From NCBI RefSeq assembly GCF_013348805.1, contig NZ_CP054690.1, positions 5,456,001-5,520,000 on the forward strand: 64,000 nucleotides of DNA. Reading direction: 5' to 3'. This DNA comes from Rhodococcus sp. W8901. GTDB taxonomy: Bacteria > Actinomycetota > Actinomycetes > Mycobacteriales > Mycobacteriaceae. The notes under the pieces were generated by a model. The model had not been told where the DNA came from, searched no databases, and saw only the letters and a program-made list of their open reading frames with translations. Below are positions 7,033 to 54,549 of the stretch, piece after piece. Position numbers and translations under genes: made by a program. Within the stretch, counting starts at the first letter, position 1. Each line of letters begins with the position of its first letter.

Positions 7033-7380
7033 TCAGTGCAGGCGGTCCGCCCAGTCCTCCGGTACCCGCTCGCGTGGTCCCGGAACCGTCTGTTCGCTCG
7101 GATGGCTCTGCGGCGGAGCCAGTTCCGGACCCTCGGCGAAGCCCTGCGTCCGGTAGTCCCAGAACCAGTCCTCACCGGGCTCGAAGCTCCGGATGATCGG
7201 GTGTCCGGACGCCGCCGCGTGCGCGCTCGCGTGCTGCGCGGGGGAGGAGTCGCAGCAGCCGACGTGCCCGCAGGCGGCGCAGCGGCGCAGGTGGAACCAC
7301 CACCCGCCGGCCGCGTCGCACTCGGCGCAGCCCGTTCCACTGGGCGTCGCGGCGGGATCGATCTCCGGTGTCTCGGTCAT
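7033..7380 (-). CDS. UBP-type zinc-finger protein
   Basis: 115 residues containing a zf-UBP domain, the fold that in eukaryotic deubiquitinases binds the free ubiquitin C-terminus. Zinc ligands are visible in CAECDAAGGWW, CAACGHVGCCDSSP, HASAHAAASGHP, then the family's RSFEPGEDWFWDY. I start at the ATG at 7380 (MTETPEIDP); upstream in-frame codons read as non-coding. Bacteria of this group have no ubiquitin, so the ligand is unknown. The gene is divergent (173-base gap) from a flavin monooxygenase. A second family member is at 51526-51858. Confidence 0.88.
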   Translation of the reverse strand: MTETPEIDPAATPSGTGCAECDAAGGWWFHLRRCAACGHVGCCDSSPAQHASAHAAASGHPIIRSFEPGEDWFWDYRTQGFAEGPELAPPQSHPSEQTVPGPRERVPEDWADRLH

Positions 7381-7553
7381 GTGTCGTGCCTCCTCGGCCG
7401 GGCGTCGGTGTGGTCGACGTGGACACCATTGTTCGCCGCGCCCGGCACCGCGTCGAGTGAATCGGACCGCGGATTTTGCTGGCACACCGCGCGACTGTCG
7501 GGCTACGGTGCATTACAGACGTGGTTTCACCAGTGCCAGCATCGGGAGGACCC

Positions 7554-9098
7554 ATGGGCCCCGAACGCCCCACCGGTTCCGCGACGAGCCGCGGCACCGC
7601 ACCCGAACACGTCGACGTCCTCATCGTCGGCGCCGGGCTGTCGGGAATCGGCGTCGCCAGCCGACTCCATCGGACACAGCCGGACCGCACCTTCGCGATC
7701 CTCGAGGCCCGCGCCGTGTCCGGCGGCACGTGGGACCTGTTCAGGTACCCGGGTGTCCGCTCCGACTCCGATATCCAGACCTACGGGTACGACTTCAAGC
7801 CGTGGAAGGGCCGCGCGGCGCTGGCACCCGCGGCAGACATCCTCGACTACATCCGCGACACCGCACGCGAGTACGACGTGGAACGTCATATCTGCTACGG
7901 CCACAAGGTGATCCGTGCCGACTGGTCGTCGACGGACGCCCGCTGGACGGTCACCGCACGGCGCGACGACACCGGCGAGATCGTGACATTCACGGCCGAC
8001 TGGTTCTTCTGCGCCAGCGGCTACTACAACTACGACCGGGGCTACACACCGGTGTTTCCCGGTGCCGACCGGTTCACCGGCCGGATCGTGCATCCGCAGG
8101 CCTGGCCCGAAGACCTCGACTACGCCGGCAAGCGGGTGGTGGTGATCGGTTCCGGGGCCACCGCCGTCACCCTGATCCCGGCGATGGCCGACGCCACCGC
8201 GCACGTCACGATGCTGCAGCGCTCGCCGTCCTACGTCATCGCGCTCCCCGAAGAGGACACGGTGTCCAGCATGCTTCGCCGGGTGCTGGGAGACGAGCGG
8301 GGCTACCGGCTGGCCCGCAAGAAGAACACCATGCTGAACTTCCGGGTCTACAAGCTCGCCCGCCGCTTCCCCAAACAGGCGCGGGCGATCATCCGCCGGC
8401 TCAATGTCCGGCTCCTACCGTCCGGTTTCGACGTCGACACCCACTTCAACCCCACCTACGATCCGTGGTACCAGCGCCTGTGCGTCGTCCCCGGCGGCGA
8501 CCTGTTCAAGACGATCTCCAGGGGCAAGGCTTCGGTGGTCACCGACACCATCGAGACGTTCACCGAGAACGGCATCGCGCTGGTGTCCGGGAAGCATCTC
8601 GACGCGGACATCATCATCACCGCAACCGGACTCGACCTGCTCATCCTCGGCGGCATCGAGATCCACCTGGACGGCGAACCGATCGACATCACGAAGCGGC
8701 TCACGTTCAAAGGCACGATGCTCTCGGACGTTCCCAATTTCTCGTTCGCCTTCGGCTACCTCAACGGGCCGTGGACACTCAAGCTCGATCTGGTCGCCGA
8801 CTACCTGTGCCGACTGCTCGACGAGATGGATCGGCGGGGTGCCCAGATTGTCGTCGCGCACAATACGGAACCGGCCATCGAGACCCGGCCCCAGTTCGAC
8901 TTCACGTCCGGGTATATCCAGCGGGGCCTGGACCTGTTTCCGCGGACCGGCACCAAGGAGCCCTGGAGCCTGCCGATGGACTACTACAAGGACGTCGTCT
9001 CGCTTCGGGACACCCCGATCGACGACGGCACCCTGACGTTCTCGCGGGTCGAGCCGACGCCGACGAGATCGGACGACGACCTCGTCAGCCCCGACTGA
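7554..9098 (+). CDS. Flavin-containing monooxygenase, Baeyer-Villiger / EthA type
   Basis: 514-residue FAD/NADPH monooxygenase. The FAD-binding Rossmann motif VLIVGAGLSGIG is near the N-terminus (about residues 22-33), SGGTWDLFRYPGVRSDSD follows, then the Baeyer-Villiger fingerprint FTGRIVHPQAWP, directly before the NADPH-binding VVVIGSGATAVT. The sequence resembles EthA-like enzymes, which oxidise ketones to esters and also activate thioamide drugs. The ATG at 7554 is chosen because GGGAGGA lies just upstream; the longer frame from 7476 lacks similarity. It is convergent with the AIM24 gene. Confidence 0.92.
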   Translation: MGPERPTGSATSRGTAPEHVDVLIVGAGLSGIGVASRLHRTQPDRTFAILEARAVSGGTWDLFRYPGVRSDSDIQTYGYDFKPWKGRAALAPAADILDYIRDTAREYDVERHICYGHKVIRADWSSTDARWTVTARRDDTGEIVTFTADWFFCASGYYNYDRGYTPVFPGADRFTGRIVHPQAWPEDLDYAGKRVVVIGSGATAVTLIPAMADATAHVTMLQRSPSYVIALPEEDTVSSMLRRVLGDERGYRLARKKNTMLNFRVYKLARRFPKQARAIIRRLNVRLLPSGFDVDTHFNPTYDPWYQRLCVVPGGDLFKTISRGKASVVTDTIETFTENGIALVSGKHLDADIIITATGLDLLILGGIEIHLDGEPIDITKRLTFKGTMLSDVPNFSFAFGYLNGPWTLKLDLVADYLCRLLDEMDRRGAQIVVAHNTEPAIETRPQFDFTSGYIQRGLDLFPRTGTKEPWSLPMDYYKDVVSLRDTPIDDGTLTFSRVEPTPTRSDDDLVSPD

Positions 9099-9107
9099 CC
9101 CTCACCC

Positions 9108-9806
9108 TCAGTTGCTGTTACTGCTACTGGTGGTCGTGGTGCTCGACGGCATCCGGGCCCGGAGCCAGTCGACCAGGTCCGTCGCGCTACGGGTCTGCAT
9201 CCAGACCCGACCCGGACCGGTGAACTCGGTGACGATGCCCTCGCCACCGAGAATCATCGACTTCCACCCACCGGCCTTGCGGATGCGGTACTGGACGGTC
9301 TCGTCGAACGCGACGACGTGACCGGAGTCGAGTGTCATCGTCTCCCCCGCCGCGAGCGTCACCGACCGGATGGCGCCGTAGCTGGACAGCAGGATCTCGC
9401 CGTTTCCGCTGCACCGCAACAGAACGAGCCCCGCGCCGCTGAAGAACCCCTTGCTGCCGCCCCATTTGGAGTCGACGTCGACGGTCGCGTCGGAGGCGAG
9501 CCAGCAGCCGGACTGGACGAGCAGCGCGGTCCCTTCGTCGACGGTGGTTTCGACCAGGTCGCCCGGGAGTGCGCCGGCGACGCCCACGACACCACCCCGT
9601 TCACTGCTGAAGTCGTTGACGAAGAAGCTCGAGCCGCCCAGGGAGCGGCGGAGTCCCTTCAGGAAGCCGCCCCGCGTCGACGTGGTGATCGCGATGTCAC
9701 CCCGCATCATCGCCATCGCCCCGGCCTCGACGCGGACCGATCCACCGGCGGGGACACTGATCTCGGCGAACGCGAACGCGGGCCCACAACTTATCTCGGT
9801 CTTCAT
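9108..9806 (-). CDS. AIM24 / TIGR00266 family protein
   Basis: 232-residue all-beta protein of the AIM24 (TIGR00266) family. It has repeated Gly-rich beta hairpins such as AGAMAMMRGDI and LVQSGCWLASD, then GFFSGAGLVLLRCSGNGEI and LDSGHVVAFDETVQYRI. No signal peptide or catalytic motif is visible, and the biochemical role of the bacterial family is not established. The final 14 residues are a low-complexity Ser/Thr/Asn tail. It is convergent with the monooxygenase, nine bases away. Confidence 0.87.
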   Translation of the reverse strand: MKTEISCGPAFAFAEISVPAGGSVRVEAGAMAMMRGDIAITTSTRGGFLKGLRRSLGGSSFFVNDFSSERGGVVGVAGALPGDLVETTVDEGTALLVQSGCWLASDATVDVDSKWGGSKGFFSGAGLVLLRCSGNGEILLSSYGAIRSVTLAAGETMTLDSGHVVAFDETVQYRIRKAGGWKSMILGGEGIVTEFTGPGRVWMQTRSATDLVDWLRARMPSSTTTTSSSNSN

Positions 9807-9954
9807 GGCTTCCTTCTCGAAAGGTAGAAAGTCGAATATCGGGCAGGGACGTCACGGTACCGGGGTTCAGCGGCCCGGAGCCGCCTTCGACACGGGAGAT
9901 CCCGCACCCGGCGCGGTACGCTCGAGACGGCACCCGCGAGGACATGGGAGCGTC

Positions 9955-12306
9955 ATGGTGGATACGGCGTCCGAGGCACCGTCCCGGCGACGCGAACGTG
10001 TGCACCGCCTCAAGGAATTCGCGCTACTGGCGGTCACCCTCACCGCGCTGATCGCCGGCGCGATCGCGTGGCTGCTCGGTGCCGACAACGTGGCCGACAA
10101 GTGTTGGATCGCCGGGACAGTAATCGCGATCGCGCCCGCTGCCTGGTGGGTGATCGACGCGCTCCGACGGGGGCGGATGGGCGTAGACCTACTCGCGGTG
10201 TTGTCCCTGATCGGCACGCTGCTGGTCGGCGAGTATCTCGCGGGCGCACTGATCAGCGTCATGCTCGCGACGGGGCAGGCGCTCGATGCCGCCGCCGAAC
10301 GCCGCGCCACGAAGGATCTGCGATCGCTGCTCGACCACGCGCCCCGCACCGCCCGCCGACGAACCGGCGACCACGTCGAGGCGATCCCACTCGACGACGT
10401 CCTCGCCGACGACAACCTGGTGGTCGGACCGGGGGAGGTGGTGCCCGTCGACGGGTGGATCACGTCCGGTTCCGCCGTGCTCGACGAATCCGTCCTCACC
10501 GGAGAACCGCTCGCCGTCGAGCGGCGTCGCGGCGAGGCAGTGCGGAGCGGAATCGTCAATGCAGGAACCGCTTTCGAGATGCAGGCGCACACGACCGCCG
10601 ACCAGAGCACCTACGCCGGCATCGTCCGCCTGGCCCGCGACGCCGCCGCCGAGAGCGCCCCCGTCGTACGGGTGGCCGACCGCATCGCGGCCTGGTTCCT
10701 GCCGCTCGCGCTCGCAATCGCTGGTTCCGCCTGGCTGTTCAGCGGTTCGGCCACCCGCGCTGTCGCGGTGCTGGTGGTCGCGACGCCGTGTCCACTGCTA
10801 CTGGCCGCGCCCGTCGCGATCGTCTCCGGACTGTCCCGAGCGTCCCGTCTGGGTGTGGTGATTCGCAGCGGCGGCGCCCTCGAGAACCTCGGACATGCCA
10901 CGACACTGGTGATGGACAAGACCGGAACCCTTACCACCGGTCGCCCCACCGGCACGGACGTGCTCATCGCGCCCGGCGGCGATGCCACCGACGTGTTGCG
11001 ACTGGCCGCGTCCGCCGACCAACTGTCACCGCACGTACTGGCCGACGCCATCGTGCAGGAAGCGAAGATGCGCGGGCTCGCACTGACATTGCCCACCGAC
11101 GTGGCGGAGGAGGCCGGGACCGGCGTGAGCGCGACCGTCGACGGCCGACGGGTCACCGTCGGCACCCTCAGCTTGCCCGACGATGCACCGGCGTGGGCAC
11201 GTGCCGCCCACAGTCGGGCCGTGCTCGACGGCGCCGCGGTTGCCTGGGTCACCGTCGACGGCGATCTCGCGGGCGCCGTCCTGCTGGTTGATCCCGTTCG
11301 CCGGGACGCGTCCCGCACCCTGCGGCGCCTGCGCTCGGCCGGACTGAACCGGCTCGTCATGCTCACCGGGGATCGGCGCGAACCCGCGGAGGAGATCGGC
11401 TCAGTCCTCGGTCTGGACGCCGTCCACGCCGAACAGACACCCGCCGACAAGGTGGCCGGGGTCCGGGCGGAGCGGGCATCGGCGGTGACCGTCATGGTCG
11501 GCGACGGCGTCAACGACGCCCCGGCCCTCGCGGCCGCCACCGTCGGCGTCGCGATGGGGGCGCGGGGCTCGACGGCAACGTCGGAGGCCGCGGACGTCGT
11601 GCTCACCACCGATCGACTCGACCGCCTGGCCGATGCGATGGCCATCGCCCGCCGCTCCCGGCGCATCGCCGTGCAGAGCGCGGCAGTGGGGATGGGGCTG
11701 TCGTTGGTGGCCATGGGATTTGCCGCGTTCGGATTCCTGCCGCCCGCGGCGGGTGCGCTGCTGCAGGAGGGTATCGACGTGGCCGTGATCCTCAACGCAT
11801 TACGCGCGCTGCGGGGCGACCGGAACCAGGAGATTCTCCTTCCCGACGACACCGAGGCAATGCTGCACCGGTTCTCGGCCGAGCACGACGAACTGCGCGA
11901 CCAGCTGGCCATCCTGCGCGACACGGCGCAACTACTCGTCGGTGGCAACCTCGCGGCCGCATATCCCGCCCTGCGTCGGGTCGACACCTTCCTGTTCGGC
12001 ACGCTGCTCCCGCACGAGCAGGCGGAGGACCGCGAACTGTACCCGGCGCTCGCCACCCCGCTGGGCACAGCAGAGGCGACCGCGACGATGAGCCGCATGC
12101 ATGCCGAGATCGACCGGCTCGCGCGACGCCTGCGCACCCACCTCACCCGCGCCGATGCGGCCGGCCGGATCGACCCCGATCAGGTCGACGACCTCCTCGC
12201 CTGCCTGTACGGGCTGCACGCGCTGCTGCAGCTGCACTTCGTGCAGGAGGAGGAGAACTACTTCACTCTCGCGCCCGAATCGGATTCCGCGCCCCGGGAC
12301 CGCTGA
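9955..12306 (+). CDS. P1B-type (TPC motif) metal ATPase with C-terminal hemerythrin domain
   Basis: 783-residue membrane ATPase. Membrane helices lie at about 22-43, 50-70, 78-110, 245-262 and 268-292, plus two near 575-615. The ion-path motif is TPCP (277-280), and the cytosolic core has LTGEP (~181), DKTGTLT (phosphorylated Asp ~321) and GDGVND (~516). There is no N-terminal heavy-metal domain. After the last helix a hemerythrin four-helix domain (about 636-775) has spaced ligands: HRFSAEHDEL, HEQAEDRELYP, HAEID, and HALLQLHFVQEEENYF. TPC plus hemerythrin matches the P1B-5 subclass, linked to nickel/iron export; the metal here is inferred. ATG 9955 is used; the longer frame overlaps the AIM24 gene. 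Confidence 0.92.
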   Translation: MVDTASEAPSRRRERVHRLKEFALLAVTLTALIAGAIAWLLGADNVADKCWIAGTVIAIAPAAWWVIDALRRGRMGVDLLAVLSLIGTLLVGEYLAGALISVMLATGQALDAAAERRATKDLRSLLDHAPRTARRRTGDHVEAIPLDDVLADDNLVVGPGEVVPVDGWITSGSAVLDESVLTGEPLAVERRRGEAVRSGIVNAGTAFEMQAHTTADQSTYAGIVRLARDAAAESAPVVRVADRIAAWFLPLALAIAGSAWLFSGSATRAVAVLVVATPCPLLLAAPVAIVSGLSRASRLGVVIRSGGALENLGHATTLVMDKTGTLTTGRPTGTDVLIAPGGDATDVLRLAASADQLSPHVLADAIVQEAKMRGLALTLPTDVAEEAGTGVSATVDGRRVTVGTLSLPDDAPAWARAAHSRAVLDGAAVAWVTVDGDLAGAVLLVDPVRRDASRTLRRLRSAGLNRLVMLTGDRREPAEEIGSVLGLDAVHAEQTPADKVAGVRAERASAVTVMVGDGVNDAPALAAATVGVAMGARGSTATSEAADVVLTTDRLDRLADAMAIARRSRRIAVQSAAVGMGLSLVAMGFAAFGFLPPAAGALLQEGIDVAVILNALRALRGDRNQEILLPDDTEAMLHRFSAEHDELRDQLAILRDTAQLLVGGNLAAAYPALRRVDTFLFGTLLPHEQAEDRELYPALATPLGTAEATATMSRMHAEIDRLARRLRTHLTRADAAGRIDPDQVDDLLACLYGLHALLQLHFVQEEENYFTLAPESDSAPRDR

Positions 12307-43262: not shown

Positions 43263-44396
43263 GTGGTTGTCGATATGGTTGCTGCGGAGCTGGATACGTT
43301 GCATGAGCGGGTGTCTGGCCGGTTTGCGCGGGCGGAGCCACGCAGCCGGGTGCGTGAGTATGTCTCGGGTTTGGTTGCGGGTCTGGAACGGAAGAACGGG
43401 TGGACGCTGGCCGAGCGCGCCGGTGAGGTGAGCCCGGACGGGATGCAGCGGCTGTTGCGGCGGGCGGACTGGGACGTCGACGGGGTCCGTGATGATGTCC
43501 GTGATTACGCGGTCGAGCGCCTCGGCGACCGCTCGGGGGTGTTGATCGTCGACGACACCGGTTTCCTGAAGAAGGGCACCCGCTCGGCCGGGGTGCAGCG
43601 CCAGTACTCGGGCACCGCGGGCCGGGTGGAGAACTGCCAGATCGGGGTGTTCCTCGCCTACGCCTCGAGTGCCGGCCACTCGTTGATCGACCGGGAGCTC
43701 TACCTACCCGAATCCTGGACTTGCGATCGGGCCCGGTGCCGCGCCGCGGGAATCGACGACGAGGTGGAGTTCGCGACCAAACCCACACTGGCGCAGCACA
43801 TGATCGAACGAGCACTTCACGCGCAGGTTCCGTTCTCCTGGGTCACCGCCGACGAGGCGTACGGTCAGGTGAAGTACCTGCGGGCCTGGCTCGAGGAACG
43901 GGACGTGTCGTATGTGCTGGCCACCCGGCGCAACGACGACGTGTTCACCACCGACGGCCGCACCGGCCGCGCCGATCACCTGATCGAGGAGGTCCCCGCG
44001 AAGCAATGGCGCCGTATCTCCGCCGGCAACGGCGCCCACGGGCCGCGCGAGTATTCCTGGGCGCGGGTCCCGATCCGGATCACCCGGGCGCCCGGGCGTG
44101 GGCACTGGCTCCTCGCACGCCGGTCCCTCTCCGATCCGACCCAGATCGCGTACTACATCTGTGCCGGGCCGCGCCGCACCACGCTCACTGAACTCGCCGC
44201 CGTCGCCGGGTCCCGGTGGCGGGTCGAGGAATGCTTCCAACAAGCCAAAAACGAGGCCGGCCTCGACCAGTACCAGGTTCGCACCTACCGCGCCTGGTAC
44301 GCCCACACCACCCTGTCGATGCTCGCCCTCGCTTGGCTTGCCGGCACGAAAACCGAAGCAGCAAAAGGGGAACCGGAACACACGATCAGGGCATGA
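43263..44396 (+). CDS. IS701-family transposase, main part
   Basis: 377 residues of a DDE transposase. The first acidic residue is in GVLIVDDTGFLKKG (about residue 95), the second in PFSWVTADEAYG (about 195) and the third (Glu) in GSRWRVEECFQQAKNEAGLD (about 330). The GTG at 43263 is the frame start. The frame stops with TGA at 44394-44396, about 50 residues short of family length. The missing tail is in the next frame with an overlapping ATG (ATGA), so expression needs a frameshift or coupling, or the element is inactive. Confidence 0.82.
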   Translation: MVVDMVAAELDTLHERVSGRFARAEPRSRVREYVSGLVAGLERKNGWTLAERAGEVSPDGMQRLLRRADWDVDGVRDDVRDYAVERLGDRSGVLIVDDTGFLKKGTRSAGVQRQYSGTAGRVENCQIGVFLAYASSAGHSLIDRELYLPESWTCDRARCRAAGIDDEVEFATKPTLAQHMIERALHAQVPFSWVTADEAYGQVKYLRAWLEERDVSYVLATRRNDDVFTTDGRTGRADHLIEEVPAKQWRRISAGNGAHGPREYSWARVPIRITRAPGRGHWLLARRSLSDPTQIAYYICAGPRRTTLTELAAVAGSRWRVEECFQQAKNEAGLDQYQVRTYRAWYAHTTLSMLALAWLAGTKTEAAKGEPEHTIRA

Positions 44397-48167: not shown

Positions 48168-48389
48168 GGCGCATCCCTCGACACTCGGGTGATCCGCTCC
48201 GGTCCCGGAGACCGGGGCGGTGATCTATCCAGCACACCACTCGCGCGGACGTCACGGAAGAGGACTGGTCGGAACCCCGGGACGGGCCGGGCTCCGAGCG
48301 ACGCTCCCGAGCACACGGGCCGACACCGTTCCCACAACTGCGGCATACTCGGAACTGGCGGCTGAACGGCGGCCGCAAATGGGAGAACG

Positions 48390-50048
48390 ATGGCACAGCC
48401 GGCAATTCTCAGCGTCGACGACGATCCGAGCGTCTCCCGCGCCATTGTCCGGGATCTGCGCCGCCGCTACGGCGAGAAGTATCGGATCATCCGGGCAGAG
48501 TCCGGCGCCGAGGCCCTGGCCGCGCTCAAGGAGATCAAGCTGCGCGGCGACCCGGTCGCGGTCCTGCTGGCCGACTACCGGATGCCGGGTATGAGCGGTA
48601 TCGAGTTCCTCGAACAGGGCATGGACCTGTACCCGGCGGCGAGGCGGGTGCTGCTCACCGCCTATGCCGACACCGATGCGGCGATCGACGCGATCAACGT
48701 CGTCGATCTCGACCATTACCTGCTCAAGCCGTGGGATCCGCCCGAGGAAAAGCTGTACCCGGTACTCGACGCCCTGCTCGACGCCTGGGTGACGTCCGAC
48801 CGCAAGCCGGTGACCGAGACCAAGGTGGTCGGGTACCGGTGGTCGGCGCGGTCCTCGGAGGTGCGCGAGTTCCTGGCCCGTAACCAGCTCCCGTACCGGT
48901 GGTACATGTCCGATGAACCGGAGGGTGAGCGCCTGCTCGAGGCCGCGGGCGCCGACGGTATGCGGCTGCCGGTGGTGATCACCTCCGACGGTCAGGCGCT
49001 GGTGGAGCCGACCGATTCGGAGCTGGCGCACCACGTCGGACTCGCCACCGTCCCCGCGTCGGACTTCTACGACCTCGTCGTCATCGGCGGTGGGCCGGCC
49101 GGGCTCGGTGCGGCGGTGTACGGGGCGTCGGAGGGCCTGCGCACCGTGTTGATCGAGCGCACCGCCACCGGCGGGCAGGCCGGGCAGAGTTCGCGGATCG
49201 AGAACTATCTCGGCTTCCCGGACGGACTGTCCGGCGCCCAGCTGGCCGACCGGGCGCGCAGGCAGGCCGCCAAGTTCGGCGCCGAGGTGATCACCACCCG
49301 TGACGTCGTCGCGCTGGAGGTGAACGGGTCTGCGCGCACCGTCCGGTTCGCCGACGGGGCCACGCTGGACGCACACACCGTCATCCTCGCGACGGGGGTG
49401 TCGTATCGGCAGCTGTCGGCACCCGGGCTGAACGAGTTCACCGGCCGCGGTGTGTACTACGGCTCGGCGGTGACGGAGGCCGCGCGCTGCAGCGACCAGG
49501 ACGTGTACGTGGTCGGCGGAGCGAACTCCGCGGGGCAGGCGGCGGTCTACCTCGCCCGGGGCGCCCGGTCGGTGACCATCCTGGTGCGTTCGGGCTCGCT
49601 GGACGACTCCATGTCGCACTACCTGATCCAGCAGATCCGACAGCATCCGAGGATCACGGTCCGGACGTGCTCGGAAGTGGTCGGCGCAGAAGGCGACGAC
49701 CACCTGGAGCGGATCACTCTGCGCGACAACACCACTGGCCGCACCGAATCTGTCGACGCGCAGTGGCTCTTCCTGTTCATCGGGGCCGCGCCGCGCACGG
49801 ACTGGCTCGACGGCGTCGTGGTGCGCGACGCGGACGGATACGTCGTCTCCGGACCGGACCTGGTGGTCGACGGCAAACGGCCGCGCGGCTGGGAACTCGA
49901 GCGCCTGCCGCACCAGTTGGAGACCAACGTGCCCGGGGTCTTCGCGGCGGGGGACGTGCGCTCCGACTCCGCGAAACGGGTGGCGTCGGCAGTGGGAGAG
50001 GGAGCTATGGCAGTGATGCTCGTCCATCGATACCTGGCCAAGCCGTGA
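48390..50048 (+). CDS. Response-regulator / thioredoxin-reductase-like fusion flavoprotein
   Basis: 552 residues in three parts. (1) A receiver domain, about 4-125: acidic pair in SVDDDPSVS, phospho-acceptor Asp in LADYRMPGMSG, Thr in LLTAYAD, Lys in LLKPWD. (2) A glutaredoxin/thioredoxin-like segment, about 140-215 (SSEVREFLARNQLPYRWYMS, LPVVITSDGQALVEP), with no cysteine. (3) A thioredoxin-reductase-like FAD/NAD domain: VVIGGGPAGLGAA, ATGGQAGQSSRIENYLGFPD, VVGGANSAGQAA, GVFAAGDVR. The CxxC that defines thioredoxin reductase is absent (AARCSDQ has one Cys). It is probably a redox- or NAD(P)H-sensing signalling flavoprotein. It overlaps the kinase start (GTGA). Confidence 0.9.
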   Translation: MAQPAILSVDDDPSVSRAIVRDLRRRYGEKYRIIRAESGAEALAALKEIKLRGDPVAVLLADYRMPGMSGIEFLEQGMDLYPAARRVLLTAYADTDAAIDAINVVDLDHYLLKPWDPPEEKLYPVLDALLDAWVTSDRKPVTETKVVGYRWSARSSEVREFLARNQLPYRWYMSDEPEGERLLEAAGADGMRLPVVITSDGQALVEPTDSELAHHVGLATVPASDFYDLVVIGGGPAGLGAAVYGASEGLRTVLIERTATGGQAGQSSRIENYLGFPDGLSGAQLADRARRQAAKFGAEVITTRDVVALEVNGSARTVRFADGATLDAHTVILATGVSYRQLSAPGLNEFTGRGVYYGSAVTEAARCSDQDVYVVGGANSAGQAAVYLARGARSVTILVRSGSLDDSMSHYLIQQIRQHPRITVRTCSEVVGAEGDDHLERITLRDNTTGRTESVDAQWLFLFIGAAPRTDWLDGVVVRDADGYVVSGPDLVVDGKRPRGWELERLPHQLETNVPGVFAAGDVRSDSAKRVASAVGEGAMAVMLVHRYLAKP

Positions 50049-51484
50049 ACGCCGGGCCGGCGTGCACGCCGGAGGAACTGCGGACGCTCTTCCTCTTCGA
50101 GAAGCTCGACGACGATCAACTCGAGCAGCTGTGCCGCGCCGGGCGCATCGAGGTGATCGAGCCGGGCCCGGTGTACCGCGAGGGCGCCCCGGCGACCTGC
50201 TTCTATGTGCTCATCGAGGGGGAGGTGGTGCTCACGAAACTGTCCGGCGGCCAGGACGTGGAGATGGTGCGAACCTCGCACCGCGGCGCGTATTCGGGCG
50301 CGTGGACCGCCTACATGGGCGACCGGGTGCCGCAGGTCTACGGCACGTCGATGACCGTGCCCGAGCGCTCCACCTTCTTCGTCCTGGACGCCGACGATTT
50401 CGCCCGTTTCATGGCGGAATGGTTCCCGATGGCGCTTCATCTGCTCGAGGGGCTGTTCTTCGGCAACCAGAGCTCCCGCGAGATCATCGCCCAGCGTGAG
50501 CGACTGCTCGCCCTGGGCTCCCTGTCCGCCGGGCTGACGCACGAGCTGAACAACCCGGCAGCGGCCGCGGTCCGGGCGACGGCGTCGCTCCGAGACCGGG
50601 TCGCCGGCATGCGACACAAGCTGGGAATCATCGCCTCCGGGGCCTACGAGCCGGCAACCCTCAACGCGCTCATCAGAATTCAGGAAGAGGCGGTGGACCT
50701 GGTCGCCAAGGCTCCGGTGCTGAGCCCACTCGAGGAATCGGACCGCGAGGACGCGCTCGGCGGGTGGCTGGAGGATCACGGCATCGCCGGCGGCTGGAAT
50801 CTCGCGCCGAGCTTCGTGCAGGCCGGGCTCGACGTCGCCTGGCTCGAGCGGGTCGCCGCGGAGGTCGAGCCGTCGATCCTCGGCGGCGCAGTCAACTGGC
50901 TGAACTACACCATCGAGTCCGAGTTGCTGATGGACGAGATCGCGGACTCCACCGCCCGGATCACCGCCCTCGTCGGCGCAGCGAAGCAGTACTCACAGAT
51001 GGACCGAGCCCCGTTTCAAGTCTCGGATGTACACGAATTGCTCGACAGCACACTGGTCATGCTCAGCCGGAAGATCGGCGGCGGCAGCGGCATCGAAGTG
51101 GTCAAGAGCTACGACCGCGCCCTGCCGCCCGTTCCTGCGTACGCTGCCGAACTCAACCAGGTCTGGACCAATCTCATCGACAACGCCGTCAGTGCCATGG
51201 ACGGCCGCGGCACCCTCACCATCCGCACCTACCGGGACGGCGACTGCCTGGCCGTGGCAATCGGAGACACCGGCCCGGGCATCCCCGAGGATATCCGCGG
51301 CCGCATCTTCGAGCCGTTCTTCACGACGAAACCGGTCGGTGAGGGCACCGGGCTCGGACTCGACATCTCGTGGCGGATCGTCGACAAACATCGGGGCGAC
51401 ATCCGCGTGGAATCACAGCCGGGGCATACCGAATTCGTGGTCCGCCTTCCGCTGGCCGGTCCGGAGGGAGATCACGATGGATGA
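50045..51484 (+). CDS. Histidine kinase with N-terminal cyclic-nucleotide-binding-type domain
   Basis: 479-residue soluble kinase. A cNMP-binding fold (about 10-130; LFLFEKLDDDQLEQLCRAGR, FYVLIEGEVVLTKLSGGQDV) is followed by a dimerisation helix with the phospho-acceptor in LTHELNNPAAAA (His166). The ATPase domain has the N box NLIDNAVSAM, G1 GDTGPGIP, F box IFEPFFTTK and G2 GEGTGLGLDIS. There are no membrane helices. GTG 50045 overlaps the upstream stop, coupling it to the receiver/flavoprotein, its obvious phosphotransfer partner. Confidence 0.92.
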   Translation: MNAGPACTPEELRTLFLFEKLDDDQLEQLCRAGRIEVIEPGPVYREGAPATCFYVLIEGEVVLTKLSGGQDVEMVRTSHRGAYSGAWTAYMGDRVPQVYGTSMTVPERSTFFVLDADDFARFMAEWFPMALHLLEGLFFGNQSSREIIAQRERLLALGSLSAGLTHELNNPAAAAVRATASLRDRVAGMRHKLGIIASGAYEPATLNALIRIQEEAVDLVAKAPVLSPLEESDREDALGGWLEDHGIAGGWNLAPSFVQAGLDVAWLERVAAEVEPSILGGAVNWLNYTIESELLMDEIADSTARITALVGAAKQYSQMDRAPFQVSDVHELLDSTLVMLSRKIGGGSGIEVVKSYDRALPPVPAYAAELNQVWTNLIDNAVSAMDGRGTLTIRTYRDGDCLAVAIGDTGPGIPEDIRGRIFEPFFTTKPVGEGTGLGLDISWRIVDKHRGDIRVESQPGHTEFVVRLPLAGPEGDHDG

Positions 51485-51525
51485 TCTCGTCGGACTCGAG
51501 GCTCCGCCGCGGTAGGCGTCCGGCG

Positions 51526-51858
51526 TCAACCCATCTCGGCGTGCCGGTAGCACCAACGCCACGCCTCGCCCGGCTCGTGCGATCGCATGACGGGGTGTCC
51601 CGTCTGCTCGAAATGCGCAGTCGCGTGCCGGTGGGGGCTCGAGTCGCAGCATCCGACGTGCCCGCAGGTGAGGCAGAGCCGCAGGTGCGCCCAGTTCTGT
51701 TCGCCGAGCGCCTCGCATTCCTCACAGAGGCCGGGCGTGCGCGGCTCCGGGTCCGGTCCGGTGGCCGCCGCGAGTTCGTCGCAGGGTCCGGCCGCAGCCG
51801 GACCCGGGGATCCGACACCAATGTGGTCAGCCGCGCGTCGGAGAACTCTCTTCATCAC
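51526..51858 (-). CDS. UBP-type zinc-finger protein (second copy)
   Basis: 110 residues. Zinc ligands are in CEECEALGEQNWAHL, CLTCGHVGCCDSSP, HRHATAHFEQTGHP, with RSHEPGEAWRWCYRH closing the domain. The core is nearly the same as the protein at 7033-7380, with a different N-terminus (about 40 Pro/Ala-rich residues). It is encoded on the opposite strand between the kinase and the antiporter, so it is not in their operon but sits inside the locus. The ligand is unknown in bacteria without ubiquitin. Confidence 0.88.
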   Translation of the reverse strand: MMKRVLRRAADHIGVGSPGPAAAGPCDELAAATGPDPEPRTPGLCEECEALGEQNWAHLRLCLTCGHVGCCDSSPHRHATAHFEQTGHPVMRSHEPGEAWRWCYRHAEMG

Positions 51859-51914
51859 CTCCCATCCTGCATGCTGCAGGGTGGGATATCTACACCCGAC
51901 CGCAGGAGGACGCC

Positions 51915-53513
51915 GTGAACGTGGCCCTGCTCGCCGTCGCGGTGGCGGCGCTGCTCACCGCCGCCGTCGCACGACGCCTGAACTGGTCGGCGCCGCTGTT
52001 GCTGGTCCCGGTCGGACTGGCCGGGTCGCAGATCCCCGGACTCCCCGACACTGCGTTCGACCCCGATCTCGTGTTGTTCGCGGTACTGCCGCCGCTGCTC
52101 TACTCGGCCGCACTCGACAGTTCCTCGCTTGCGCTGCGCCGCAATGCGCGCGCGATCGGGCTGCTCGCAATCGGGCTGCCGCTCGCCACCACCGCCGTTG
52201 TCGGGGTGGTCGCGTACCTCACCATTCCCCAGTTTCCCCTCGCCGCCGCGCTGGTGCTCGGGGCGGTCGTCGCGCCGCCGGATGCGGTGTCCGCCAGCGC
52301 GATCGGACGACGCCTCGGCCTACCCCGCCGGATCATGACCCTGCTCGGCGGCGAGAGCCTGCTCAACGACGCGACCGCGCTCACCGCCTACCGTGTCGCG
52401 CTCGCCGCAGCGGTCGGCACCGGCGTGACCCTGCTGGAGGGGGCGCGCACCTTCCTCGGTGCCGCGATCGGCGGCACGCTGATCGGCCTCGGGGTAGGGA
52501 TCGTCGTCGCCGCGATCCGGTCCCGGCTCGCGGATCCGGTGATGGAGAGCGCGATCGGGCTACTCGTCCCCTTCGTCGCATACCTGGCGGCCGAGCAGGT
52601 GCACAGCTCCGGGGTGATCGCGGTCGTAGTCGCCGGCCTGTATCTGGGCCAGCGGTCGACCCGCGCCGGCTACGCGACCCGCTTGCAGGACACCGCGGTG
52701 TGGAAGGCCGTCGACGTCGTCCTCGAATCGTTCGTCTTCCTACTGATCGGGCTGCAGTTGCCGAGCGTGGTGCAGGGACTCCACGGCCGCAGTGTGGCCG
52801 AAGTCGTCGGCGCCTCCCTTGCCGTGCTCGTCGCGGTGATCGCCGTCCGGTTGCTGTGGGTCTACCCCGCGACCTACCTCCCCCGGCTGCTGTCCGCGCG
52901 GATCCGCGAGCGGGAGCCGGCGCCGCCTCCCCGAGGGGTGTTCGTGGTCGCATGGTCCGGCATGCGCGGTGTGGTCTCGCTGGCCGCGGCGTTCGCGATC
53001 CCGCTGACCGTCAATTCGGGAGGCCCCTTCCCTGGACGCGACATGATCCTGTTCATCACCTTCGCTGTCGTGGTCGGCACCCTGCTCCTGCACGGCTTGA
53101 CCCTGCCGTGGCTGATCACCCGGTGGGGAGTCGACAACGAAGAAGAACGCCGCAAGGACGCGCTGGCACTGGCCGCCGCGCAGGACAAGGCAGCACGCGC
53201 CGCAACGGAGGTTCTCGACAGCCTGGTCGCGAACGCCGACGGGGACCCCGCCGCCGTCCGCGAGCGGGCCGCGGAGATCCTGCGCACCTGGAGCGAGCAC
53301 CGCGCCCACGCCGCGTGGGAACGGCTCGGGCGCAGCGAGGCCGAGTTGGGGGAGAGCCCGTCCGCCGCGTTCCGCGCGCTGCGCCTGCAGATGCTCGAGA
53401 CCGAGCGGAACGTCTTCCTCGCAGAGCGCGACAGCGGACGAATAGACGACGAGGTACTGCGACAGGTGCTGCGCGAACTCGACCTCGAGGAGGCAACCCT
53501 CAACCGGGAGTGA
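51915..53513 (+). CDS. Na+/H+ antiporter (CPA1 family)
   Basis: 532 residues with about 12 membrane helices. Conserved CPA1 motifs are FAVLPPLLYSAALD, VAPPDAVSASAIGRRLGLPR (ion-site Asp), GGESLLNDATALTAY and WSGMRGVVSLAAAFAIPL. After about residue 400 comes a ~130-residue hydrophilic, helical regulatory tail (ALALAAAQDKAARAATEVLD onwards). GTG 51915 follows AGGAGGACGCC. It exchanges cytoplasmic Na+ (or K+) for H+. The position beside a redox-type two-component pair suggests coupling of ion/pH balance to that signal. Confidence 0.92.
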   Translation: MNVALLAVAVAALLTAAVARRLNWSAPLLLVPVGLAGSQIPGLPDTAFDPDLVLFAVLPPLLYSAALDSSSLALRRNARAIGLLAIGLPLATTAVVGVVAYLTIPQFPLAAALVLGAVVAPPDAVSASAIGRRLGLPRRIMTLLGGESLLNDATALTAYRVALAAAVGTGVTLLEGARTFLGAAIGGTLIGLGVGIVVAAIRSRLADPVMESAIGLLVPFVAYLAAEQVHSSGVIAVVVAGLYLGQRSTRAGYATRLQDTAVWKAVDVVLESFVFLLIGLQLPSVVQGLHGRSVAEVVGASLAVLVAVIAVRLLWVYPATYLPRLLSARIREREPAPPPRGVFVVAWSGMRGVVSLAAAFAIPLTVNSGGPFPGRDMILFITFAVVVGTLLLHGLTLPWLITRWGVDNEEERRKDALALAAAQDKAARAATEVLDSLVANADGDPAAVRERAAEILRTWSEHRAHAAWERLGRSEAELGESPSAAFRALRLQMLETERNVFLAERDSGRIDDEVLRQVLRELDLEEATLNRE

Positions 53514-53532: not shown

Positions 53533-54480
53533 TCAGCGCCCTGCGGTGGACGTCACGAAATCGGTGTCCGCACGGCGCAACACGGCATTGCATGCGTTGC
53601 AGGTGTACTGGGGTTCGAGCAGGTGCTCGCCCGCGCTGTGCACGATGGTCAGGCCGGACCGTCCATTCTCGGACAGATGCCGCGCCGCCCACGCGTTGAG
53701 TGCGGCGAACACGGGAAAGAAGTCGAGGCTCTTGGGCGTGGTGCGGTACTCCTGCCGTCGCGCGCCGTCCACGATCGGCGCGCGGACCAGCATCCCGTTG
53801 TCGATGAAATACGCGAGGCGGTCGGTCAGGGTGACCGGCGAGATCGATCCGAGCCGGTCCTGCAAGTCGCCGAATCGGCGGTTGCCCTCGAGTAGGGCGG
53901 CGAGCAGGAAGGTCGACCAGCGATCGGCGAGCACACTGGTGGAGTCCATCCCCGACGCGTCACCCTTCGCCGTGCGCCGGGACCGGCGGTCGGCGACGTC
54001 GACGAGGAGCGGCGCATCGACCTCGGTCCGCACGTCGCGGGCCGTCACCCCGATCGCCTGGCACCCGCCGCACCCGAACACCGGGGTGATGACGTGCCCG
54101 CACGTCAGGTGGCGAAGTTGTGTGGTCGGTTGGGCGGGTGCCCACGGCGCCCAGTGGCGGTCCCAGCTCCACAACGCGACGAAGACTTGCCACAGGTCGC
54201 CGCCGAGATCGGTGAGACGGTATTCGTTACGCGGCGGCGCGGTCGAGTACGGATGCGCGTCGAGGATCCCGTCGTCGATCAGCCGACCCAGGCGATGCGA
54301 GAGGACTGCGTCCGAGATCCCGAGCTGGTCACGCAGTTGCGCAAAGCGCTCGACACCGGCGAAGACGGCCCGCATGATCTGCAGATTCCATCTGTCACCC
54401 ACGATGAGCAGAGCGCGCCCCAGCGCGGACGACGCCGGGTCGGCCGGTGGCTCCGCGGGGCGCGGCGGGACGGTGGACAT
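53533..54480 (-). CDS. Tandem HxlR-family regulator with zinc-ribbon-like motifs
   Basis: 315 residues made of two HxlR winged-helix modules. Module 1 has LGRALLIVGDRWNLQIMRAV and GISDAVLSHRLGRLIDDGIL; module 2 has VLADRWSTFLLAALLEGNRR and SPVTLTDRLAYFIDNGML. After module 1 comes H-x2-C-x9-C-x2-C (HLTCGHVITPVFGCGGC); module 2 ends with a simpler CNAC. The start is uncertain: ATG 54480, 54489/54492, or 54546 right next to an inverted repeat. It is convergent with the antiporter and divergent from the thiolase it probably represses. Confidence 0.85.
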   Translation of the reverse strand: MSTVPPRPAEPPADPASSALGRALLIVGDRWNLQIMRAVFAGVERFAQLRDQLGISDAVLSHRLGRLIDDGILDAHPYSTAPPRNEYRLTDLGGDLWQVFVALWSWDRHWAPWAPAQPTTQLRHLTCGHVITPVFGCGGCQAIGVTARDVRTEVDAPLLVDVADRRSRRTAKGDASGMDSTSVLADRWSTFLLAALLEGNRRFGDLQDRLGSISPVTLTDRLAYFIDNGMLVRAPIVDGARRQEYRTTPKSLDFFPVFAALNAWAARHLSENGRSGLTIVHSAGEHLLEPQYTCNACNAVLRRADTDFVTSTAGR

Positions 54481-54549
54481 GCCGTCCATCATCGCAAACA
54501 GCGTCGGTCCGGGCGCAGTGGCGTTGCACCCCACCTCTCCACACATTCA

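Follow-up and report, generated by a model that had tools for sequence, protein, structure and literature searches.

Burroughs, Iyer and Aravind (Mol BioSyst 7:2261, doi 10.1039/c1mb05061c) reportedly predicted in 2011 that bacterial ZF-UBP proteins take part in a cyclic nucleotide-dependent redox system, and an open-licence literature search found no study of this system, apart from mentions of the prediction in reference lists. We analysed a locus of this kind in Rhodococcus sp. W8901, within a stretch of 64,000 nucleotides referred to below as the window (contig NZ_CP054690.1, positions 5,456,001 to 5,520,000 of the forward strand). Four genes lie side by side in this window, encoding a flavoprotein fused to a receiver domain (P0001), a soluble-looking kinase (P0002), a zf-UBP zinc finger protein (P0003) and a CPA1 Na+/H+ antiporter (P0004). 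The locus is like the 2011 system, as reported, in that the same gene families stand together, but it differs in two aspects. First, the window kinase is without the canonical cyclic-nucleotide contacts on which the nucleotide dependence of that system would rest; these residues are lost in the window lineage and kept in others. Second, the local UBP is of the antiporter type. We propose, with a probability of roughly 0.6, that two conserved modules, each making use of a zf-UBP protein, were joined recently to give this block: a kinase-switched flavoprotein and a UBP-regulated antiporter. The names given in public records are FAD-dependent oxidoreductase, ATP-binding protein and UBP-type zinc finger domain-containing protein, as well as cyclic nucleotide-binding domain-containing thioredoxin-disulfide reductase and cation:proton antiporter.

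Adjacent genes and gene fusions alike support a link of the predicted zf-UBP proteins to the flavoprotein on the one hand and to CPA1 antiporters on the other. In the phylum, zf-UBP genes are found in 68 of 296 genomes, at 92 places; among the 89 stretches examined, which correspond to the 90 places outside the window, a flavoprotein is present in 20, a kinase in 15, a P0004-like antiporter in 16 (4 of them fused) and all four in 2. In the family sample (81 genomes with 86 UBP places), 26 UBP places are within 4 kb of a flavoprotein gene, 35 are within 1 kb of an antiporter gene (20 divergent pairs and 15 fusions) and 3 are near both. The numbers expected by chance are far lower, at ∼0.1 for the flavoprotein and ∼0.07 for the antiporter at an assumed mean genome size of 4.7 Mb, although the comparison is tempered by the fact that the association counts ignore relatedness. 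The same 20 stretches and 26 family places have a ZF-UBP gene beside TrxR-like/cNMP genes (TrxR, thioredoxin reductase; cNMP, cyclic nucleoside monophosphate), which reportedly defines the 2011 system. Clustering of neighbouring genes, performed blind to family, returned UBP at 93 loci, the flavoprotein at 91, the kinase at 63, the antiporter at 20 and the next cluster at 7, with the UBP and flavoprotein numbers inflated by the way the loci were gathered.

Fusions point in the same two directions. A kinase-UBP fusion occurs in one stretch (L129) and an antiporter-UBP fusion in another (L060), and on a Deinococcus plasmid a UBP match lies in frame within a gene annotated as a cation:proton antiporter (WP_239051178.1). 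The CPA1 proteins of L060 and Deinococcus, with their C-terminal zf-UBP, combine the same two domains that are found in the window, but in the window these are two divergent genes. P0004 itself scores 323.5 against the CPA1 model TIGR00831, above the cut-off of 279.6. Module 1 is the receiver flavoprotein with its kinase, often with a UBP of its own, and module 2 is a UBP with an antiporter, divergent or fused. The UBP association put forward in the original prediction holds as a link to the flavoprotein and to the antiporter, but not as a single conserved four-gene module.

Several observations weigh against the two-module reading. In the family, 28 of the 86 UBP places are near neither a flavoprotein nor an antiporter gene, no UBP adjoins the antiporter at 46 of 81 antiporter places, and 9 of the 30 close flavoproteins are without a UBP inside 4 kb, with a UBP elsewhere in 7 of these 9 genomes. 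At the loci of the best 80 of at least 148 flavoprotein relatives, a UBP was found in the flanking sequence of 24. Moreover, two of the 89 stretches (L049 and L062), both of which belong to a single distant family (f18) within the phylum, carry the flavoprotein, three kinases, a UBP and an antiporter on one strand, with an MFS gene between the kinases and the UBP in L049. As these two stretches hold all four families, the combined module that was originally predicted is possible.

In its placement of the four genes the original prediction agrees with the Pfam and TIGRFAM matches, and its coupling of P0001 to a cNMP-domain histidine kinase by a GTGA overlap is likewise seen (P0001 stop TGA at 50046-50048, P0002 GTG start at 50045; cNMP and HATPase matches in the kinase). 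It had listed the genes as successive, however, and had missed that the zf-UBP gene lies on the minus strand, where it is convergent with the kinase gene and divergent from the antiporter gene, whose GTG start is 59 bp beyond the 5′ end of the zf-UBP gene. The start of the latter is most likely the ATG at 51855, because the protein is conserved from this Met onwards in two related loci (L219 and L221). With the zf-UBP gene reading in the opposite direction, the four genes do not form one transcript but at least two transcription units. A second zf-UBP gene of the window, at 7033-7485, had also been missed.

All four genes are found together in 3 of the 5 genomes of this genus and in no other genome among the 81 of the family. 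Two of these genomes (G302 and G347) match the window block at ∼88% DNA identity over 5.2 kb, and the block is conserved in L219 and L221. The remaining genomes are informative about its origin. In G363, the flavoprotein, the kinase and a UBP of a second type (A) are on one contig, while the antiporter and its UBP (type B, as P0003) are on another. No close flavoprotein was found in G330, and both in G330 (L223) and in G353, a member of another genus (L224), the upstream neighbour stands directly beside the type B UBP and antiporter genes, with the segment corresponding to window 48263-51525 absent. A 12-codon open reading frame (ORF) after the kinase gene, MDDLVGLEAPPR, resembles the start of the type A UBP of G363 (L217), MSDIEGIDLQVPPSG, and is likely, from this resemblance, to be a vestige of the start of a kinase-type UBP gene. 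The confinement of the four-gene block to this genus within the family sample is best explained by cassette insertion; the simplest account is that a flavoprotein-kinase cassette with a truncated type A UBP gene inserted beside the UBP and antiporter genes. Precise losses in G330 and G353 would give the same picture but are less simple.

Two other readings bear on this distribution. The two modules might adjoin by chance, the cassette having come to rest beside the UBP and antiporter genes, with no functional link between the redox switch and the antiporter in this genus, and we regard this as a serious alternative, somewhat short of even odds. It would account for the presence of the block in this genus alone among the 81 family genomes and for the separation of the modules in G363, and no P0004-like antiporter at 45 bits or above was found in flanking sequence at the loci of the best 80 of at least 148 flavoprotein relatives. 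On the other hand, the four families are also near each other in the distant L049 and L062, and the same rare domain family is used by both modules.

By contrast, the original prediction had suggested that all four proteins might be one redox/ion module; in this reading the kinase and flavoprotein would control the antiporter through the UBP. The ∼88% identity that the block shows in L219 and L221 along 5.2 kb, the independent cluster in L049 and L062 and the fusion of UBP to the kinase or to the antiporter in different relatives speak for such a module, but the opposite strand of the UBP gene, the absence of the block from other genera in the sample and the same lack of antiporters near flavoprotein loci speak against it, and we consider it unlikely. 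A single conserved four-gene operon is rejected for the family sample, in which the block is found in this genus alone and has the UBP gene on the opposite strand. The L049/L062 cluster means, therefore, that the confinement of the block to one genus among the 81 family genomes does not cleanly refute the prediction of a conserved neighbourhood.

The flavoprotein has the three parts that had been proposed for it. P0001 has Pfam matches to Response_reg (52.7 bits) and Pyr_redox_2; its receiver (residues 6-118) retains the acidic pair D10 and D11, the phospho-acceptor D62, T90 and K113. The middle part (residues 138-222) contains no cysteine and has a glutaredoxin fold according to a sequence profile of 32 segments, for which the best match in the Protein Data Bank (PDB) is the glutaredoxin 2lqo (E 2.4e-9), while Pfam alone gives just a sub-threshold GST_N_2 match. 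The places of the glutaredoxin active-site cysteines are occupied by S152 and S155. We compared 107 distinct flavoproteins, taken from the stretches around zf-UBP genes and from the best 80 of at least 148 relatives: 80 of them have Ser at the first place and 2 have Cys, while at the second place 83 have Ser or Thr and 7 have Cys.

The third part (residues 227-549) is TrxR-like and retains the FAD and NAD(P) motifs, yet, as the original prediction had overlooked, it has lost its own CxxC. The redox CxxC is present at the TrxR place in none of the 107 flavoproteins, whereas the ordinary TrxB of the window genome has CATC; 5 of the 107 do carry a CxxC at some other point of their open frame, which detracts from the argument. 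P0001 shares with the low-molecular-weight thioredoxin reductases (TIGR01292) the FAD and NAD(P) motifs and the overall domain order, but differs from them in the missing CxxC, the fused receiver and a score of 227.1, below the cut-off of 343.45. The identity of P0001 as a thioredoxin reductase is rejected because of the missing motif and the low score; with both CxxC sites lost it is therefore no ordinary thioredoxin reductase, and its motifs suggest an NAD(P)H:flavin oxidoreductase that would work without a thiol relay. The expectation of an FAD/NAD(P)H output domain, not a DNA-binding one, is supported.

The N-terminal part aligns with the receiver in 73 of the 107 flavoproteins, is a cNMP domain in 27 (Pfam matches confirm this for L131 and L125) and is neither in 7. 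A cNMP-type domain occurs either on the flavoprotein or on the kinase, as would be expected if in both places it helped to control the flavin domain. Conversely, the TrxR-like domain could be a sensor of the NAD(P)H/flavin redox state, which the receiver and kinase report or reset, and the retention of the FAD and NAD(P) motifs after the loss of the catalytic cysteines would suit this role. However, the intact receiver (62 of 107) or the cNMP domain (27 of 107) is placed N-terminally, like an input domain, and the TrxR-like domain therefore fits an effector better; we consider a sensor improbable.

Phosphorylation of the receiver by the kinase is suggested by their co-occurrence. P0002 has HELNNP at the phospho-acceptor His and the N and G boxes of the HATPase domain, as expected of a two-component kinase, although Pfam gave no HisKA match in P0002, and the phospho-acceptor His is present in all 72 kinase rows compared (the window kinase is in twice). 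A kinase of the P0002 family lies within 6 kb of 59 of the 62 receivers that keep the Asp and the Lys, and the 3 without one (L156, L175 and L179) are all close to the end of the examined stretch on one side. No kinase is near any of the 11 receivers (of 73) that have lost the Asp or the Lys (Fisher p ∼1e-10, kinship ignored), some of which may be other domains and so lessen the force of the comparison.

In a further tally, which covered 71 receiver-type proteins, the kinase is near 60 and on the same strand in all 60, downstream of the flavoprotein in 52 and upstream in 8, and 50 of the downstream starts are at -16 to +65 bp. The kinase was also found in the flank of 39 of the loci of the best 80 of at least 148 relatives. 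By record titles, the flavoprotein and kinase co-occur in eight phyla: Actinomycetota, Cyanobacteriota, Pseudomonadota, Chloroflexota, Bacteroidota, Gemmatimonadota, Acidobacteriota and Verrucomicrobiota. From these patterns, the P0001 receiver and P0002 look like a cognate pair, as had been predicted.

The cNMP domain of P0002 matches PF00027 at 30.2 bits (cut-off 27.5). Glu and Arg are the motif of the cyclic-nucleotide phosphate-binding cassette; as judged by eye, these contact residues are absent from the window kinase and present in L124, L129 and L093. The ligand of the CRP-like domain is therefore probably not a cyclic nucleotide in the window lineage. Residue 52 of P0002, in the same domain, is a Cys (ATCFYV) that is found in 33 of the 72 kinase rows and is a possible redox-sensing residue.

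The zf-UBP protein P0003 matches PF02148 at 49.1 bits (cut-off 22.7). Its residues C39, C42, C56, C59, C64, H72, H76 and H82 are invariant in 22 aligned zf-UBP sequences, and we take them to be zinc-site residues. The nearest solved relative is PDB 2ida (E 7.6e-25), presumably an RPA1320-type bacterial zf-UBP protein listed as a hypothetical protein, which shares the vicinal CC pair with P0003, while P0003 has a longer N-terminal part and is missing the His of the N-terminal CxH. The CC pair is present in 131 of 132 bacterial zf-UBP proteins, whereas the eukaryotic relatives compared have Cys-Gly or a Cys-Gly-like pair.

The original prediction had suggested that the UBP protein may recognise the C-terminal tail of a partner, as in ubiquitin binding, and this could be a ubiquitin-like tail such as that of a Pup-like protein. 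The domain family is that of the eukaryotic zf-UBP, and aromatic residues near its C-terminus are conserved. However, the stretch that aligns as CG-R in HDAC6 and USP49 has D, N or E after the CC pair in 131 of 132 sequences, and the Arg that binds the ubiquitin C-terminus was not found at this place. In addition, 13 aligned flavoproteins share no Gly-Gly end, and zf-UBP occurs beside these genes in phyla that are not known to have Pup. A ubiquitin or Pup tail reader is disfavoured by these residues, and we judge it very unlikely.

The zf-UBP proteins are of two types. The long-tailed A-type comprises 39 of the 132, including the kinase partners of Streptomyces, Nocardia and kin; all 39 are without the Cys of WCY and without the N-terminal CxH, whereas the short type keeps the former in 93 of 93 and the latter in 80 of 93. 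The kinase partners are short in other lineages, and therefore the types do not split simply by partner. In the UBP tree, the window zf-UBP at 51526, a short one, falls among antiporter partners (SH-aLRT 99, in a six-row set), while the A-type one at 7033 falls among kinase partners (95, in a set of 19 rows that includes 11 kinase partners). The tree has only 72 columns, and support is poor for 68 of its 128 inner branches, a caution against leaning on it. The UBP at 51526 is rejected as the kinase's own partner by profile and tree.

These features suggest how the two modules may work. A ligand at the CRP-like domain of P0002 would drive autophosphorylation, and the kinase would then phosphorylate D62 of P0001 and change the activity of its NAD(P)H:FAD domain. 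The UBP protein would serve as an adaptor that recruits a protein partner. The usual A-type UBP partner of module 1 would here be reduced to the 12-codon vestige, with an A-type UBP gene ∼41-44 kb away. In module 2, the B-type UBP, which is fused to the antiporter C-terminus in relatives, would be a cytoplasmic regulatory subunit of the CPA1 antiporter.

Because the flavoprotein has lost both active-site cysteine motifs, the CC pair of the UBP stands out as the leading candidate for redox contact. More speculatively, and with less likelihood than either the single module or the sensor, the modules may cross-talk in this genus: zf-UBP would be an exchangeable adaptor carrying redox state to ion transport, the flavin enzyme acting on or reading a UBP thiol, the UBP setting Na+/H+ exchange and the cassette insertion having wired both together. 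If the two-module reading is true, the output of a two-component system is a flavin enzyme without redox cysteines and not a transcription factor, and a domain known from ubiquitin biology has concrete bacterial jobs. The natural kinase-UBP and antiporter-UBP fusions point to testable partners of the zinc finger, and this genus and its neighbours, among which the modules may be joined or separate or module 1 may be lacking, are a natural comparison set.

Table 1. Features of the four-gene block and related elements (window coordinates)
Feature	Position	Strand	Remark
Flavoprotein P0001: receiver, cysteine-free glutaredoxin fold, TrxR-like FAD/NAD(P) domain	48390..50048	+	552 aa
Soluble-looking kinase P0002: CRP/cNMP-like domain, phospho-acceptor His166, HATPase domain	50045..51484	+	GTG start
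B-type zf-UBP protein P0003	51526..51855	-	ATG start at 51855, inferred from conservation
CPA1 Na+/H+ antiporter P0004	51915..53513	+	GTG start, divergent from zf-UBP gene
12-codon ORF MDDLVGLEAPPR*, likely vestige of A-type UBP gene start	51477..51515	+	Compared with UBP start of L217
Further zf-UBP gene in the window, A-type with long tail, as found partnering the kinase in relatives	7033..7485	-	Open frame, real start probably internal
Segment of ∼3.26 kb: flavoprotein, kinase, vestige	48263..51525	+	Edges accurate to a few bases

A diadenylate cyclase-like gene is found near the kinases or the UBP/antiporter pair in four stretches of one actinobacterial group (L053 3972-4562, L056 1272-1877, L058 3-548 and L100 5716-6306), and that of L053 has a Pfam DAC match in a Pfam run on L053 alone. 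As a general fifth member of the system this gene was rejected, as it is limited to the four loci of one group and the one DAC match of the window genome is far off (C1:797387). Cyclic di-AMP may bear on ion control in this group.

No Rfam match at gathering scores and no ARAGORN match were found in the window. A DDE transposase ORF (Pfam DDE_5) is located at 43263-44396, ∼4 kb before the cassette, and a regulator gene with two HxlR-type Pfam matches (53533-54546) adjoins the antiporter gene on the opposite strand. The A-type zf-UBP gene is divergent from a gene for an FMO-like flavin monooxygenase (the pair spanning 7033-9098), in surroundings that are conserved in the genus (L220, L222 and L236). 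Close by, at 9640-12303, a P-type ATPase carries a C-terminal hemerythrin domain (Pfam), a fusion that is, to our knowledge, unusual.

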